A stretch of DNA of 55,092 nucleotides from Anaerobiospirillum sp. (lineage in GTDB: Bacteria; Pseudomonadota; Gammaproteobacteria; Enterobacterales; Succinivibrionaceae), in the NCBI GenBank assembly GCA_029258325.1, contig JARHZF010000016.1, forward strand, positions 1 to 55,092, in the 5' to 3' direction. This document shows, in pieces, positions 32,047-47,450 of the stretch. Within the stretch, counting starts at the first letter, position 1. Each line of letters starts with the position of its first letter. Below the pieces are notes generated by a model. It was not told the DNA's origin. It searched no databases and saw only the letters and a list, made by a program, of their open reading frames with translations. The translations under genes and the position numbers were made by a program.

Positions 32047-32835
32047 TTAAATACTATCCTCTTTTATAGGATATACAATTTTAGTATCTTCATAAACATA
32101 TGATAAAGCACTCTCTATAATAAGATTACTTTCTAAAACTACATTGTCTACAGAAAGTAAACCTCTCTCTTTTAAATTATTAAATATCTTTAAAAATCTA
32201 TTTTGACTATTAGTCTTTACAAGATAAATGCCTAAAATTCTTGACTTATTGTCCTTTACACCTGTTAAAACCAATAAAGGTATTCTCTTTTTTTTGTTTT
32301 TCTTATTTAAAGCACTAAAATAAACTTTATCAATAAAAAGATTTTCATATTGCTCATCTAAATCCCAAAAGATTTTATTTTTTTTGCAATAAAGATTAAA
32401 AGATCTATAAATATCAGAAATTTGATCTGTTGAAAATTCATCTTTGTAAAGATCAGATAAGAAGGTAAGACCATCTTTCTCTTTTAATTTTATAGAAAAC
32501 AAACCAAAAATCATCTCTAAAATGGCATCTATCTCCTTATTTCTCTTTTTAATAATAAAAGGATTAAAACTGCCATCCCTATCTCTTGGAATTTTTAATT
32601 CAATCTCACCAAAAGAACCTTTTATTTTCTTTTTTGTATAACCATTTCTTCTATTTAAGGTATTTTTTTCTATTGATGAATTTTTGTTATAACCTAAATG
32701 AATATCAAGCTCACATTGTAAAAGTGTGTGAAATGCATGACCTAAAAATGAATTAATAGCATCTAAACGTAGATTTCCATCTAGTGCTTGTTTATCTTTC
32801 TTTAGATAATAAGTTAAATTTTTAATATCCTTCAT
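32047..32835 (-). CDS. Truncated IS256 (mutator) family transposase, possibly domesticated
   Basis: A 262-residue protein matching the N-terminal two thirds of IS256-type transposases: RRNGYTKKKIKGSFGEIELK at about 63-82, IPRDRDGSF at 83-91, then IDKVYFSALNKK near 168 (first catalytic Asp) and LLSVDNVVLE near 228 (second Asp). Full-length enzymes have about 400 residues; the C-terminal part with the CxxH motif and the catalytic Glu is missing. The frame ends in a clean TAA followed at once by a terminator, and the sequence is strongly Lys-rich. No inverted repeats were seen. It is either a decaying remnant or a captured DNA-binding fragment. It has taken the place where ybaB-recR follow dnaX in E. 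coli. Confidence 0.72.
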   Translation of the reverse strand: MKDIKNLTYYLKKDKQALDGNLRLDAINSFLGHAFHTLLQCELDIHLGYNKNSSIEKNTLNRRNGYTKKKIKGSFGEIELKIPRDRDGSFNPFIIKKRNKEIDAILEMIFGLFSIKLKEKDGLTFLSDLYKDEFSTDQISDIYRSFNLYCKKNKIFWDLDEQYENLFIDKVYFSALNKKNKKKRIPLLVLTGVKDNKSRILGIYLVKTNSQNRFLKIFNNLKERGLLSVDNVVLESNLIIESALSYVYEDTKIVYPIKEDSI

Positions 32836-33077: not shown

Positions 33078-35612
33078 TTATTTTGTTTTTTTTATATCCT
33101 TATATAAAAATATATTAATGTTATCTACATTATTTCCAACCTTCTCAATAAAAGATCTTAAATACTTATTATCCTTTATCTTATTTCTAACATTTACAAT
33201 ATGGGCTAAATACTCACTCTCTGCATAACATTTTGGAGTATTTTGTAACTTGTCATTTACAAAATTAAACTCAATCTTTATCTTTTTACCTAAATAAGTA
33301 CTAAAACATCTCTCTAAATCCTCTAAAGCATCCTTACTATTTAAAATATTTCTATACTGTGTAGATGTAGTTAAAAGCCAATGACTATCATCATTGTCTA
33401 TATATGTTCTTGTACTATCTTCAAGTAAAGATAATATGTAATCTTTTTCAATATTGGCATTATAAATATCATGATACCAAGGATCTTTATTTATAACAGC
33501 ATAATAAAAATCATCTGTTGAAACTTGCTCTTTGCCCTTAAAATAAAAATCTTGTCTTTGCATAGCTTGTAAATCAACATTATTTGGCATAAATGTATTT
33601 TGTGGATTGCCATCTACTATTTGATTTTCATTGCTATCATAAACAATATCTATATCATCATAATTGCTATAACTTTCACTACTATCATAGTCAACATAGT
33701 CAAAATTATCCTCACTATTTATATAAGAATTACTCTCATCATAAACATTATCTTGACCTATGCTAGTATCAATAACATTATTTGCATTAGACTCAATACT
33801 ACTTGCTAGCAAAGTCTCGTCTATACTTTTTGTTGTAGCACTAGTAGCTACATCTTCTTTTAAAGAATTTAGAGTAGCAGAATTTATAGCAGTATGATTT
33901 TTAGCATCACTATTTTTAGCATTATGCTCTTTATCAAAATTCTCTATGTAATTATCAAAAGAACGTATACTATAAAGATTATTTTCTAAATTCTCTTTTC
34001 TACTATAATCCTTGTTTTTATCTAAATACTTAAATGGATCATCTTTTACATAGTTAATATTAGATAAAACATAACTACAAGTCTCATTGCTATTTGCAAT
34101 ATCCTTATACTCGTCTATTAAAGAATTTAAAAATTCTTCATTTATATCATTTTTATAAGGTTTAAAGACACCATCACTGTCAAATCTATCAAAACACTTT
34201 ATATCATAAAGCTTTTGTGTGCTAACTTTTGCAGCTTTTATAGCCTTATTAAAAGTAGTATGTAAACTCTCTTTCTTATTTAAAGAATCTTTAGCATCAT
34301 CTAAAACAAAATTAGTGCTAGCACTACTTTCTCTATTATCTAAAGCATCTAAACTATCTGTGCTAGCATTAAATTCATTATTTGCTAAATTATCATAACT
34401 ATCTACATAGTCATTAAGCTCATTTGAGACAAATTCATTGTCTAAACTAGATGTTGCCTCATAATTATCAAAGAGATCGTCATCATCAAAACTATTATTA
34501 GAGCTATTTAAAGCTTCTGTAGCAACAAAATTTAACTCTTTAGCTTGCTCTATTGCAGTCTCAATATCTATATTCTTATTAATTTCAGTATTATTGTCTA
34601 TAGCAAGATCTAAAGCATCATAAGCAACCTTACCTTGATTTATAGCAATATTAGTAATCTTACTAATTTGAGCTTCAAGACTATTTGTAATACTTTGCTT
34701 TGAGATAGGTGCTTTACTATTACTAAAGTCCTTATGCATATTATGCATTTCATTATTTAATAAATTTATATAGTCTTTAACTTCATCTAAATAAGAAAGA
34801 TAAGAATCATTTTCTACTTGTTTAATAAGCTCAATAGGTGCACTAAAACTCATACTATCAGTATTAAAGTTAAGAGCATTTTTATCTACTATATTGCTAC
34901 TATAATCAATAGTCTCAACCTTAGCTTTACTCTCTTCTTGTACATTTGCTTTTAATAAAGATATAGCATGACTTGCATCTTTTGCATTAAAATTATCCTG
35001 CTTTAAATCATCCTTAATTTCATCAAAATTCTCAGATGGTATAACTCCACCCATAGAATCAATTTGACTATCAGGATCTAATTGCACACCTAAATTATCA
35101 TATATATTATTTGATAGACTATCTTTAATATTAGCAATATTATTATCTTTAATCTCTTTATCTAAGGTATTAGATATATCATTAGCATTTAAAGCAACAT
35201 TATCTATATCAGTATTATTAAAAGTATCTAAAACCTCTTTTTTAGAGAGATTATTAGTATCATCATTTACATCTAATCCATTATCATGACTTATTAAAGT
35301 CTCATCTTGAGCTTTTAGAGTGTCATCTTTTAAAGGATGTAAAATCTCTTCTTTAGTATTTTCTATATTTAGATTATCTTTATCTAGATCTGCTTTATCT
35401 AAATCTTTTTGATTTAAATCTTCTTTATTTAGATTTTCTACATGTAGCTCTTTTTTATTTAGATCTTCTCTATCATCTAAAGCTATGGCATTTTTATCTT
35501 GTATAGATGCTATAGTCTCTATTTCATCTAAACTAAATATATTGCTATATAAAGTCTTTAAATTTTCAATGCCTGATACATTTTTCTCATTATCAAGAAG
35601 GTCTATCCAATC
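33078..35612 (-). CDS. dnaX: DnaX tau-specific extension, read in the -1 frame: long linker and domain V
   Basis: From the A10 run at 35613-35622 the -1 frame is open without a stop for 844 codons to 33078. I checked each triplet between 35610 and 35088. An initiation at the GTG at 35087 (669 codons) is the apparent gene, but no ribosome site supports it. About 700 residues are Asn/Asp/Ser/Leu-rich and low in complexity (for example DLNQKDLDKADLDKDNLN), surely disordered. The last ~144 residues match tau domain V, which binds the polymerase alpha subunit: INKDPWYHDIYN, then DSHWLLTTSTQYRNILN, then KKIKIEFNFVND, then NKIKDNKYLRSFIEK, parallel to the E. coli tau end (TDPWAAQV..., SSQRHLNNRG..., VELTIVEDDNP, IQTLRRFFDA). 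Joined to gamma the product would have 1215 residues, against 643 in E. coli. Confidence 0.8.
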   Translation of the reverse strand, partial: DWIDLLDNEKNVSGIENLKTLYSNIFSLDEIETIASIQDKNAIALDDREDLNKKELHVENLNKEDLNQKDLDKADLDKDNLNIENTKEEILHPLKDDTLKAQDETLISHDNGLDVNDDTNNLSKKEVLDTFNNTDIDNVALNANDISNTLDKEIKDNNIANIKDSLSNNIYDNLGVQLDPDSQIDSMGGVIPSENFDEIKDDLKQDNFNAKDASHAISLLKANVQEESKAKVETIDYSSNIVDKNALNFNTDSMSFSAPIELIKQVENDSYLSYLDEVKDYINLLNNEMHNMHKDFSNSKAPISKQSITNSLEAQISKITNIAINQGKVAYDALDLAIDNNTEINKNIDIETAIEQAKELNFVATEALNSSNNSFDDDDLFDNYEATSSLDNEFVSNELNDYVDSYDNLANNEFNASTDSLDALDNRESSASTNFVLDDAKDSLNKKESLHTTFNKAIKAAKVSTQKLYDIKCFDRFDSDGVFKPYKNDINEEFLNSLIDEYKDIANSNETCSYVLSNINYVKDDPFKYLDKNKDYSRKENLENNLYSIRSFDNYIENFDKEHNAKNSDAKNHTAINSATLNSLKEDVATSATTKSIDETLLASSIESNANNVIDTSIGQDNVYDESNSYINSEDNFDYVDYDSSESYSNYDDIDIVYDSNENQIVDGNPQNTFMPNNVDLQAMQRQDFYFKGKEQVSTDDFYYAVINKDPWYHDIYNANIEKDYILSLLEDSTRTYIDNDDSHWLLTTSTQYRNILNSKDALEDLERCFSTYLGKKIKIEFNFVNDKLQNTPKCYAESEYLAHIVNVRNKIKDNKYLRSFIEKVGNNVDNINIFLYKDIKKTK

Positions 35613-36724
35613 TTTTTTTTTTGGGGATTAAAGGCTAAAAGACGCAATAAGGTCATCTCAAAGCAAGTACGAGCATCTTGAGCTAATTCTAACTCTTTTA
35701 AACCCTCTAAAGTTATTTGATAGAAAAGTTGCAGTGAGTTTGGATTAAATAAATGAGCATACTTATTTAAAACACTATCCTCAAAAGTAAAGACAGACTT
35801 TGCTTTAGTACCTATTACTTGATATAAAGCAATATCATGCATTAAGATAGATAGCTCTTGTAATAAGTTCTTATAGTTTGGACTTTTACTTACTACATTG
35901 TCTAAAACATGAGCAAATTCATCTATATTAGACTCTGCAAGTAAATCTAAAATATCAACAAGTATCTTATCACCTACAGTACCTAACATAGATTGTACTG
36001 TGTCTTTTATAATACTACCATTGCCAAGAGCTATAGCTTGATCAGTTAGCGATAAAGCATCACGCATACTGCCACGACCTGCTCTTGCAATTAAAGATAC
36101 AGCCTCATTGTCATAAGGTATGTTTTCTTTAGTTGCAATCTTTATAATTTGACTTTCAATATCTTCTTTTGATAAAGATTTTAACTGAAACTGTAGTGTT
36201 CTTGATAAAACAGTTGTTGGTATTTTATGTGGATCTGTTGTAGCTAAAATAAATTTAAAATACTCAGGTGGCTCTTCTAAAGTCTTTAAAAGAGCATTAA
36301 AACTGCTTGTAGTTAACATGTGAACTTCGTCTATGATGTAGATTTTATATCTGCCATACATAGGTGGATATTGAGTATTTTCAAGTAATTGTCTTGTATC
36401 CTCAACCTTAGTTTGGGATGCACCGTCAATTTCAATTACATCTGTATATGTACCTTGAATAATACTTTTACAAGCCTCACATTCACCACATGGATGTGAG
36501 GACATACCCTTTTCACATTCTAAAGATTTAGCAATAATTCTGGCAATTGTTGTTTTACCAATACCACGTGTACCTGTTAGCAAATAAGCATGATGCAATC
36601 TATTTAAATCAATTGCATTAGCTATAGCTTCAAGTACATGCTTTTGACCTACAACATCTTCAAATGTTTGTGGTCTATATTTTCTTGCAAGTGCTAGGTA
36701 TTCGTCTCTTTTTTCAATTGCCAT
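35603..36724 (-). CDS. dnaX: DNA polymerase III clamp-loader subunit DnaX, short (gamma-like) form
   Basis: A 373-residue AAA+ ATPase of the sliding-clamp loader. Walker A GTRGIGKTT (51-59), zinc module Cys70, Cys79, Cys82, Cys85, Walker B IIDEVHML near 130, and VLSRTLQFQ near 173 (SRT in place of the usual SRC). Domain III, the collar, runs to about 365, and the frame then stops (NPQKKKIG, TAG) right at the A10 run. E. coli gamma has 431 residues and is made by a -1 shift away from tau; here the zero frame gives the short form and the shift gives the long one. apt lies 6 bases upstream as in E. coli. Confidence 0.95.
   Translation of the reverse strand: MAIEKRDEYLALARKYRPQTFEDVVGQKHVLEAIANAIDLNRLHHAYLLTGTRGIGKTTIARIIAKSLECEKGMSSHPCGECEACKSIIQGTYTDVIEIDGASQTKVEDTRQLLENTQYPPMYGRYKIYIIDEVHMLTTSSFNALLKTLEEPPEYFKFILATTDPHKIPTTVLSRTLQFQLKSLSKEDIESQIIKIATKENIPYDNEAVSLIARAGRGSMRDALSLTDQAIALGNGSIIKDTVQSMLGTVGDKILVDILDLLAESNIDEFAHVLDNVVSKSPNYKNLLQELSILMHDIALYQVIGTKAKSVFTFEDSVLNKYAHLFNPNSLQLFYQITLEGLKELELAQDARTCFEMTLLRLLAFNPQKKKIG
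35613..35622 (-). promoter_or_regulatory. A10 recoding site in dnaX
   Basis: Ten T on the plus strand, so CCCC-A10-GATTGG in the mRNA. Zero frame reads CAA AAA AAA AAG ATT GGA TAG; the -1 frame reads AAA AAA AAA GAT TGG. A slippery run like this allows ribosomal -1 slippage (A AAA AAG) or RNA polymerase slippage as in Thermus dnaX. I see no Shine-Dalgarno-like stimulator just upstream and no strong hairpin downstream, which leans toward transcriptional slippage. Confidence 0.75.
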
Positions 36725-36730
36725 AAAAAA

Positions 36731-37303
36731 TTAATGTCCTGGAAATGTTATTAAAGATGTGGTTTCTACATTATATGTTTTTGAAATAATTTCACGACCA
36801 CCTAAATCTTCAAGCTCAATAATAAAAGCTGCTTTATAGATGTCGCCACCTAAACTTCTAATTAACTTTATAATAGCACCAATAGTACCACCTGTTGCTA
36901 GTAAATCATCTAATACTAAGACACGATCGCCTTTTTCTATTGAGTCTTTGTGCATATGTAATGAATTATGACCATACTCAAGATCGTAATCTTCTTTTAT
37001 TGTTTCACGTGGTAATTTGCCAGGCTTTCTTACCATAACAAAACCTGCACCTAATCTTGCTGCTAAAGGAGCACCAAAAACAAAACCTCTAGCCTCTGCT
37101 GATACTACTTTATCAATATTCTTATCCTTAAATAAGTCATAAAGAACATCTATACATAAAGCAAAAGCTTTTTTATCTATACAAAGTGATGTAATGTCTC
37201 TAAATAAAATACCAGGTTTTGGGTAGTCAGGAATAGATTTGATGGTCTTTTTTAAATACTCTATTTTCTCATCAAAATTATCCACAGCTAAAACGTCTGA
37301 CAT
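36731..37303 (-). CDS. apt: Adenine phosphoribosyltransferase
   Basis: A 190-residue purine-salvage enzyme making AMP from adenine and PRPP. The PRPP loop [16 protein letters not shown] is at about 127-142, with [13 protein letters not shown] near 25, [13 protein letters not shown] near 69 and the flexible-loop [16 protein letters not shown] near 92. E. coli Apt is 183 residues. It heads the apt-dnaX unit. The AzgA-like permease near the right end may supply adenine, though it is far away. Confidence 0.95.
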
Positions 37304-45527: not shown

Positions 45528-47450
45528 CTATAGTTCTAATTTAGGTTTAATAAAAGCTTTTTTCTTTTTTAGATAATTTAAAAATAAAGCTATAAGATCT
45601 TTATTTTGTTTTTTATTAGCTAAAGATATAGCATCATTTATAGCTAAAATAAGATCTTCTTTATCCCTTTCATCTTTATATAAAAGATCTTTATCTAAAA
45701 GATAAGAGAGAAGCTTAATAGCCCTCGCTTCTATAAGATTAAATAAAAATTGTTTTTTATCTTCAACTCTTATAGCACAATACTTTAGATATTCTAAAAT
45801 ATCTTCTTCTTTATAAAAAGCTTTTATATACTTAGCTCTATTAGTTATATTGTTATCTTTATACTCAATATTATTTTTAACATATTGTGCTATATTATCT
45901 TTTAAGCATACGATTTTATCATGATCATATAAGTACTTAAAAAATTTAATAAAATTTTCTCTAATCTCATGATAATCAAAAGAAGTACCATCATTTAAAT
46001 TCATAAAAGCACCATGAAATATTGAGTTTATTTCTTTTTCAAATGCTTTTACATCAGTATCTAAAAGAGTAGTTTCCTTTAATATAGAGATAAAGTCTTT
46101 TTTATTAAAGATAAAGGCTAAATATAAAAGGTGAGATAATGTAATTTCATCTATTGCCTCTCTTTCTATAAGAATCTTTAAGTTTTGAAGTCTATTTTTC
46201 TCTCCTCTTTTATATTGAAGCTCAATATCTTTATAAAAAGGTTTTAATGTACCTATTTCATAATAGTTAAAGTCTTGCTTTATCAATAATTCATGTAATG
46301 CTTTTAAAGGAAGATTATCATGACCTTTAAAAAAGTTTAAAGTTCCAAAGAGTTTTTGCTGATATGTTTTAAGCTCATCTTTTTCATCATTTAAAAGTTC
46401 TTCTTTAGTAAGTCCATATGGCATATAAACAAAATTATTGTCTAAAAGCATATTAACCATTTTAGTATCTGCATAGCGACAAGCAAAGCAAAGAGGTCTT
46501 AAGCGACAAATTCTTTGTGAAAAGTGATTTACAAGAACCTTGGCGTTTTCAAAATCATTTTGTAGTATTAATATTTCAAGTATAACTGTAAGCTTAAAAC
46601 CATTAAGCTTTTTATAGACATTTAGATTTTGCATAAACTTATGCTTTACAATAAATTCTAAAGCCTTTTTTGCTTGTATATTAAAACAATGAAAGAATAC
46701 CTTAAAGAAGTTATTTTCTATAAATTTATTATAAGATGCCTTCATCTCATCACTATAAAGGATGTTATTTTCCATATAGGCAAGAGCAAGACGTACACCT
46801 ATATCTCTTGAGTTACACTTTAAAATATCAAAATTTGGGAATAAAAAACGTGCTTTTTTTAAGACATTTAAATCAAATAAATTAACTTTTTTAGCATGAG
46901 CTATTCTTTCTATATAAGGTGAAAATATAGTAAAGTTAAACTCATTTGAAATATGATAAAAAGGACTTTCATTACGCCTTAAATTAAAGACTGTCATAGC
47001 TTTAGGAAGATGTACTTCCTTTGTATAGGAATTTATGACTATAGACTCCACAAAAAATGTTTCTATCCTATTATCAAATTCTAAAATTGCCTCTCTTTTT
47101 GCTGTAGGCATAGAGAACATAGTTTTATAATCTTTTGAAAATAAAAAACCATCTTTACTTGCAAAATAAGGATTATCCTTATCAACAATAAAACCCTCAA
47201 ACTTAGATGATGTAAAATGATTTATATAGTAGTTTTTATAAGGTTTTTTATTTATATAAACTATATCTTCATGACTTACTTTTTGAAAGTTTTTACTTAA
47301 AGTAAGAGATTTTAAATTATAAGCTACAGTACATAGAGCATCTTTTTTTATGTAAAAAACATCTAAAGGAAGCTCAACTTCATTTTTATTGCCTTTATAA
47401 CTTATAAGTTCATGATTTTCTATATGAAAAGCTTGTCTATTTTCCATCAC
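45528..47450 (-). CDS. BspA-type leucine-rich repeat plus ankyrin-like protein
   Basis: A 640-residue cytoplasmic-looking protein without signal peptide. Residues ~15-150 contain BspA-like (LRR_5) repeat elements, clearest at 88-118: FIVDKDNPYFASKDGFLF, then SKDYKTMFSMPTAK. The middle and C-terminal parts are alpha-helical with ankyrin-like pairs, for example LRPLCFACRYADTKMVNMLL near 310-330 and FNLIEARAIKLLSYLLDK near the end. GTG at 47450 has AAGGA eight bases upstream; ATG at 47447 is the alternative. It is the first gene of a two-gene unit with SUFU. It most likely binds other proteins; LRR and ankyrin proteins are common next to SUFU in immunity loci. Confidence 0.6.
   Translation of the reverse strand: MMENRQAFHIENHELISYKGNKNEVELPLDVFYIKKDALCTVAYNLKSLTLSKNFQKVSHEDIVYINKKPYKNYYINHFTSSKFEGFIVDKDNPYFASKDGFLFSKDYKTMFSMPTAKREAILEFDNRIETFFVESIVINSYTKEVHLPKAMTVFNLRRNESPFYHISNEFNFTIFSPYIERIAHAKKVNLFDLNVLKKARFLFPNFDILKCNSRDIGVRLALAYMENNILYSDEMKASYNKFIENNFFKVFFHCFNIQAKKALEFIVKHKFMQNLNVYKKLNGFKLTVILEILILQNDFENAKVLVNHFSQRICRLRPLCFACRYADTKMVNMLLDNNFVYMPYGLTKEELLNDEKDELKTYQQKLFGTLNFFKGHDNLPLKALHELLIKQDFNYYEIGTLKPFYKDIELQYKRGEKNRLQNLKILIEREAIDEITLSHLLYLAFIFNKKDFISILKETTLLDTDVKAFEKEINSIFHGAFMNLNDGTSFDYHEIRENFIKFFKYLYDHDKIVCLKDNIAQYVKNNIEYKDNNITNRAKYIKAFYKEEDILEYLKYCAIRVEDKKQFLFNLIEARAIKLLSYLLDKDLLYKDERDKEDLILAINDAISLANKKQNKDLIALFLNYLKKKKAFIKPKLEL

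Follow-up and report, generated by a model that had tools for sequence, protein, structure and literature searches.

We propose that dnaX in the window (a stretch of 55,092 nucleotides from Anaerobiospirillum sp.) is a two-ORF gene with programmed recoding, in which transcriptional slippage on a run of ten A (A10) probably gives tau and straight decoding gives gamma. Decoded directly from the A10 template, the gene would yield a gamma of 373 aa containing the AAA+ clamp-loader domains I–III only. If RNA polymerase slips on A10, transcripts with one A more (or two A fewer) would join both ORFs into a tau of approximately 1,215 aa, which would bind the polymerase through its C-terminal domain V. 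Transcripts in the other two frames would stop within about six codons, resulting in gamma-like products. With slippage near 50%, gamma and tau would be made in comparable amounts.

Structure of the dnaX locus

The zero-frame product of 373 residues comprises the AAA+ domain, the lid and domain III, with little beyond (Table 1). Pfam matches were obtained for PF13177 (E-value 1e-43), DNAX_ATPase_lid (2e-21) and DNA_pol3_gamma3 (4e-21), and the NCBIfam model TIGR02397 (dnaX_nterm) scored above its cut-off. At the run, the zero frame reads CAA AAA AAA AAG ATT GGA TAG. The −1 frame, which is reached by one extra A, has 844 open codons past the run, down to position 33078; the N-terminal part in the zero frame and the extension in the −1 frame would together form a tau of 1,215 residues. 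Both the short in-frame gamma, which terminates where domain III ends, two codons past A10, and the length of the open −1 frame and of tau had been described in the initial annotation, and coordinates as well as numbers were confirmed from the sequence.

Table 1. Features of the dnaX region, given in positions of the window.
Feature	Position	Strand	Remarks
Phosphoribosyltransferase gene, apt-like	36731..37303	−	PF00156 (1e-13); directly upstream of dnaX
dnaX zero-frame ORF (gamma, 373 aa, domains I–III)	35603..36724	−	PF13177, DNAX_ATPase_lid, DNA_pol3_gamma3, TIGR02397
A10 slippery run, followed by G	35613..35622	− (T10 on +)	Same codon position and register in 42/53 family members
Zero-frame TAG ending gamma	35603..35605	−	Lies two codons past A10, where domain III ends
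Third-frame TGA (two extra A or one fewer)	35593..35595	−	Six codons past the run
−1 frame ORF, tau-specific extension	33078..35624	−	Approximate 5′ boundary, placed immediately ahead of the run
Linker between domains III and V	33531..35595 (approximate boundaries)	−	Rich in N/D/S (about 690 residues); without a family match
Tau domain V	33081..33530	−	PF12170 match at about 33123–33494; family profile; predicted structure

The order apt–dnaX is presumably the same as in E. coli. Just downstream of dnaX lies an ORF of 262 aa for a Mutator-family transposase (32047–32835), which is probably truncated, as its Pfam match spans positions 24–248 of 379. Elsewhere in the window, an ORF of 640 aa (45528–47450) is without a Pfam match at 1e-4.

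Conservation of the two-ORF layout in the family

The initial annotation had suggested comparing the A run and the linker in related genomes. We surveyed dnaX in 53 genomes that belong to the same family (14 genera) and found the run and the two-ORF layout kept in 42 of them, representing 11 genera. The poly-A run is located at the same codons in these genes, directly behind a motif of domain III that typically reads LRLLAF[TNS]P[EQ] or LRLLAFNL, and the zero frame stops about 1–13 codons past it. The tau register is uniform: in all 42 genes, the tau frame is reached solely through a gain of one A (or a loss of two). Run length was measured in 41 genes, excluding one further A10 gene (G080) that was checked apart. 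A10 is by far the most frequent (33 genes), followed by A9 (five) and A7, A11 and A13 (one each), so that 40 of the 41 runs have at least nine A. The next base is G in 28 cases, C in ten and T in three. In the one gene where the run is down to A7 (G078, locus L145; TCAAAAAAATCC), tau nevertheless remains displaced by one base; this gene would need ribosomal slippage or would work at low efficiency.

The uniform register also bears on the caution that the run might be misassembled, the true length being A11 or A8 and dnaX one ordinary ORF. The window does come from a draft assembly of 222 contigs, and homopolymers are error-prone. However, the same register recurs in 42 of 53 genomes, one of which (G066) is a single contig, and codon choice after the run favours zero-frame stops (see below). 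An assembly error is therefore extremely unlikely, and the caution can be set aside.

Coding in the −1 frame and apparent selection on the gamma stop

Comparison among relatives shows the sequence after the run to be coding in the −1 frame. A peptide W-[IL]-G-E, encoded directly after the run in this frame, is conserved in many genera. Already in the first codons after the run, differences between the closest pairs of genes fall mostly at third positions of the −1 frame. For instance, the differences between G021 and G027 in 60 codons number 2, 0 and 13 at the first, second and third codon position, respectively; 13 are synonymous and 2 are not. In more diverged pairs the concentration at third positions is less sharp.

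These observations also argue against the −1 ORF being a separate gene, translated from an internal start or by coupling and never fused to the first ORF. ATG, GTG or TTG codons are present within the −1 ORF of all genomes, but in the window the earliest candidate start lies 175 codons past the run, while in relatives the frame is constrained from its first codons. Moreover, a domain V by itself could presumably not tether the clamp loader. We consider a separate gene very unlikely.

The zero-frame stop itself looks selected. The W-[IL]-G motif is found in 22 genomes, and in every one its middle codon is NTA (ATA, CTA or TTA), against 5.0 expected from each gene's own codon usage (product of genus means 4e-5); this codon and the G that begins the following one create the zero-frame TAG. 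Further, compared with the remainder of the same ORFs, the zero-frame stop is nearer to the run in 11 of 11 genera (mean percentile); the genomes of the family are related and not independent, and for the stop bias we rely on these per-genus figures. Selection for stops in both other frames is not supported, as a bias is clear for the zero-frame stop only: stops in both non-tau frames occur within 10 codons in 37 of 41 genes, but the third-frame stop is no nearer than expected (mean percentile 0.43), i.e., near chance. As a signature of transcriptional slippage, the pair of nearby stops is therefore weak.

The run is exceptional in its surroundings as well. In the other coding sequence (approximately 46.6 kb) of the window, which has 28% GC, synonymous codon choice alone would lead to 4.5 A/T runs of at least nine bases and 17 of at least eight; none and five were found, respectively. 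In G014, a genome of 2.0 Mb with 67% GC, A10G occurs once in the whole genome, within dnaX.

Phylogenetic distribution and exceptions

In a tree built on domains I–III, a single large clade (split support 99/96) unites the two-ORF genes with four one-ORF genes (G022, G006, G060 and G063). These zero-frame exceptions keep a run of A: A12 in G022, A8 in G006 and A10 in G060 and G063. In G022 (L134), tau is in the zero frame and near stops are found in both other frames. The other seven genes of the family, which belong to genera g5 and g10, consist of a single ORF and have no comparable run at the site, although an A7 follows further on in one g5 gene. Six of the seven were placed in the tree, where they group with the outgroups. 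The simplest reading is that the two-ORF state was gained at the base of the large clade, followed by a few reversals, with the deep joins of the tree lying on long branches.

A further alternative is phase variation at the DNA level, with the run toggling tau on and off. Poly-A runs can vary in replication, and lengths from A9 to A13 do occur. Nevertheless, 42 genomes share one register, four have the run in frame and none is in the third register; in addition, tau is essential in the systems studied. The probability of phase variation is thus close to nil.

In G060 and G063, the tau frame continues past A10 and is interrupted after 109 and 107 codons, respectively, by a stop-rich stretch (L153:2975-3314; L154:2968-3164), after which it resumes for about 1,460–1,510 codons. 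Within the interruption in G060 lies a dispersed repeat, partial copies of which number in the tens in both genomes. A search of the two interruptions against Rfam matched nothing credible.

In f7, a second family of the order, dnaX genes whose zero frame is short turn up sporadically (L177 in G041; also G086, G125, G219 and G420). In G041, an A10 run near the end of domain III lies about 16 codons further downstream, and tau is again one A out of frame; this case is apparently independent of the layout described here.

Domain V and the tau linker

The last approximately 144 residues of tau had been noted in the initial annotation to look like domain V. For the single sequence the evidence is weak: PF12170 matches the C-terminal 165 aa with an E-value of 7.5e-6 and 26.6 bits, just below the Pfam cut-off of 28.8. 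A profile built from 47 C-termini of the family, however, matched E. coli tau in PDB at an E-value of 2.2e-13. An AlphaFold2 model of the C-terminal domain (pLDDT 92.8) had chain E of 5fku, E. coli tau, as its top structural match in PDB (TM 0.79 on the target), and the best three matches were all E. coli tau. Profile and predicted fold thus bear out the presence of domain V. In E. coli, this domain binds polymerase alpha; the tau of the window shares the predicted fold and may bind it as well.

The linker was likewise suspected to be unusually long, and this is borne out by comparison. Tau in the two-ORF genes of the family ranges from 858 to 1,966 aa (median 1,161) and the linker from 333 to 1,435 aa; the window's tau of 1,215 aa is in the middle of its own family. 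DnaX open frames do not go beyond 771 aa when one member per family is sampled from the rest of the class, and reach at most 1,049 aa among the listed members of the order outside the family. Since one-ORF genes of the family likewise have a long tau (up to 1,215 aa), linker length and recoding are separate traits.

Between most genera the linker sequence is not conserved. A search for conserved motifs in the window's linker gave no match to other genera, and linkers are alike only between genera g9 and g11. Their make-up follows genome composition, being A/P-rich in GC-rich genomes and N/D/S-rich in the window, a pattern that would be expected for a disordered tether; a very long flexible tether between clamp loader and polymerase had been proposed in the initial annotation as a possible function.

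Transcriptional versus ribosomal slippage

The main alternative is that programmed −1 ribosomal frameshifting makes tau from faithful transcripts. The E. coli heptamer A_AAA_AAG is present in the window's own run and, among the 41 runs, wherever G comes next (28 cases), the direction is −1 in every case, and the A7 remaining in G078, i.e., A_AAA_AAA, suits ribosomal slippage better. On the other hand, 13 of the 41 runs continue with C or T, and runs of at least nine A are kept although the heptamer would suffice. Further, neither a Shine-Dalgarno-like element close upstream of the family's runs nor a downstream stem-loop in its genes (mean z −0.33; own-gene percentile 0.47) was found. Because both stimulators were missing in this search, insertion of one A during transcription appears likelier than frameshifting of the E. 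coli type. We regard a purely ribosomal origin of tau as possible but unlikely; still, ribosomal slippage may contribute or even dominate.

The initial claim that tau is made only via a −1 shift at A10 is supported as to the need for a shift at A10; the "−1" would probably better be read as one A inserted in transcription than as slippage of the ribosome. In A-run cassettes of another gene in E. coli, nine and eleven A led to 40% and 63% frameshifting, respectively (PMC3711429). Therefore, it is plausible that roughly half of the product from A10 is shifted.

Discussion

A two-ORF dnaX that needs recoding at A10 for tau is already known (PMC3711429). New are its fixation in one family, the evidence for a selected gamma stop and the very long tau linkers. 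The comparative evidence is strong that selection keeps the short product, gamma, the importance of which has long been disputed in E. coli (PMC5009743); how gamma and the long linker function, we infer. Within one family, a natural series is available in which the A run varies from 7 to 13 and dnaX is found in either register and as either kind of gene. The family's tau linkers, in turn, provide natural variants, differing in length, of the presumed tether that joins the clamp loader to the polymerase. Automatic annotation probably labels such dnaX genes as truncated or frameshifted.

A more far-reaching scenario would be that the whole family depends on an error of RNA polymerase for an essential replisome subunit, that the length of the A run acts as a dial for the gamma:tau ratio, and that disordered tethers of 700–1,400 residues alter the range over which the polymerase roams from the clamp loader. 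We put this forward as speculation and rate it as improbable.

Comparison with known systems

In the literature searched, no paper treats both Succinivibrionaceae and dnaX. E. coli dnaX shares with the genes described here A_AAA_AAG in most runs, the −1 direction and the domain architecture of the products. In E. coli, however, tau is the zero-frame product and gamma arises by a −1 ribosomal shift stimulated by a Shine-Dalgarno element and a stem-loop, neither of which was found here.

In Thermus thermophilus, dnaX (A9) is subject to RNA polymerase slippage (PMC1088944). Both systems have a run of at least nine A, and ribosomal stimulators were found in neither. Stops in the other frames also lie near the run here, the third-frame stop at about the distance expected by chance. 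Thermus tau is encoded in the zero frame and slippage leads to gamma, whereas here the reverse applies, except for the A12 gene of G022, which follows the Thermus logic. Slippage also fuses two ORFs into a longer protein in mxiE of Shigella flexneri (PMC1088944), which is an unrelated gene with a run of U instead of a dnaX with a run of A.

The inverted logic of gamma and tau, noted in the initial annotation, is real but not unprecedented. A review in NAR from 2016 states that the roles of gamma and tau are reversed in some bacteria (PMC5009743), and Antonov et al. (2013; PMC3711429) report two-ORF dnaX genes in which tau needs recoding, 17 in all from 12 genera and nine of them with A10; Chloroherpeton and Chlorobium are among the holders named there. 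As in our genes, gamma ends in the zero frame, tau continues in the −1 frame and the poly-A run usually has ten A; slippage is presumed to be transcriptional in that study, as we propose here. In contrast to those genes, which may overlap with those of the family, the layout described here is fixed in 11 of 14 genera of a single family, its linkers extend up to 1,435 aa and a stop-codon bias is evident.
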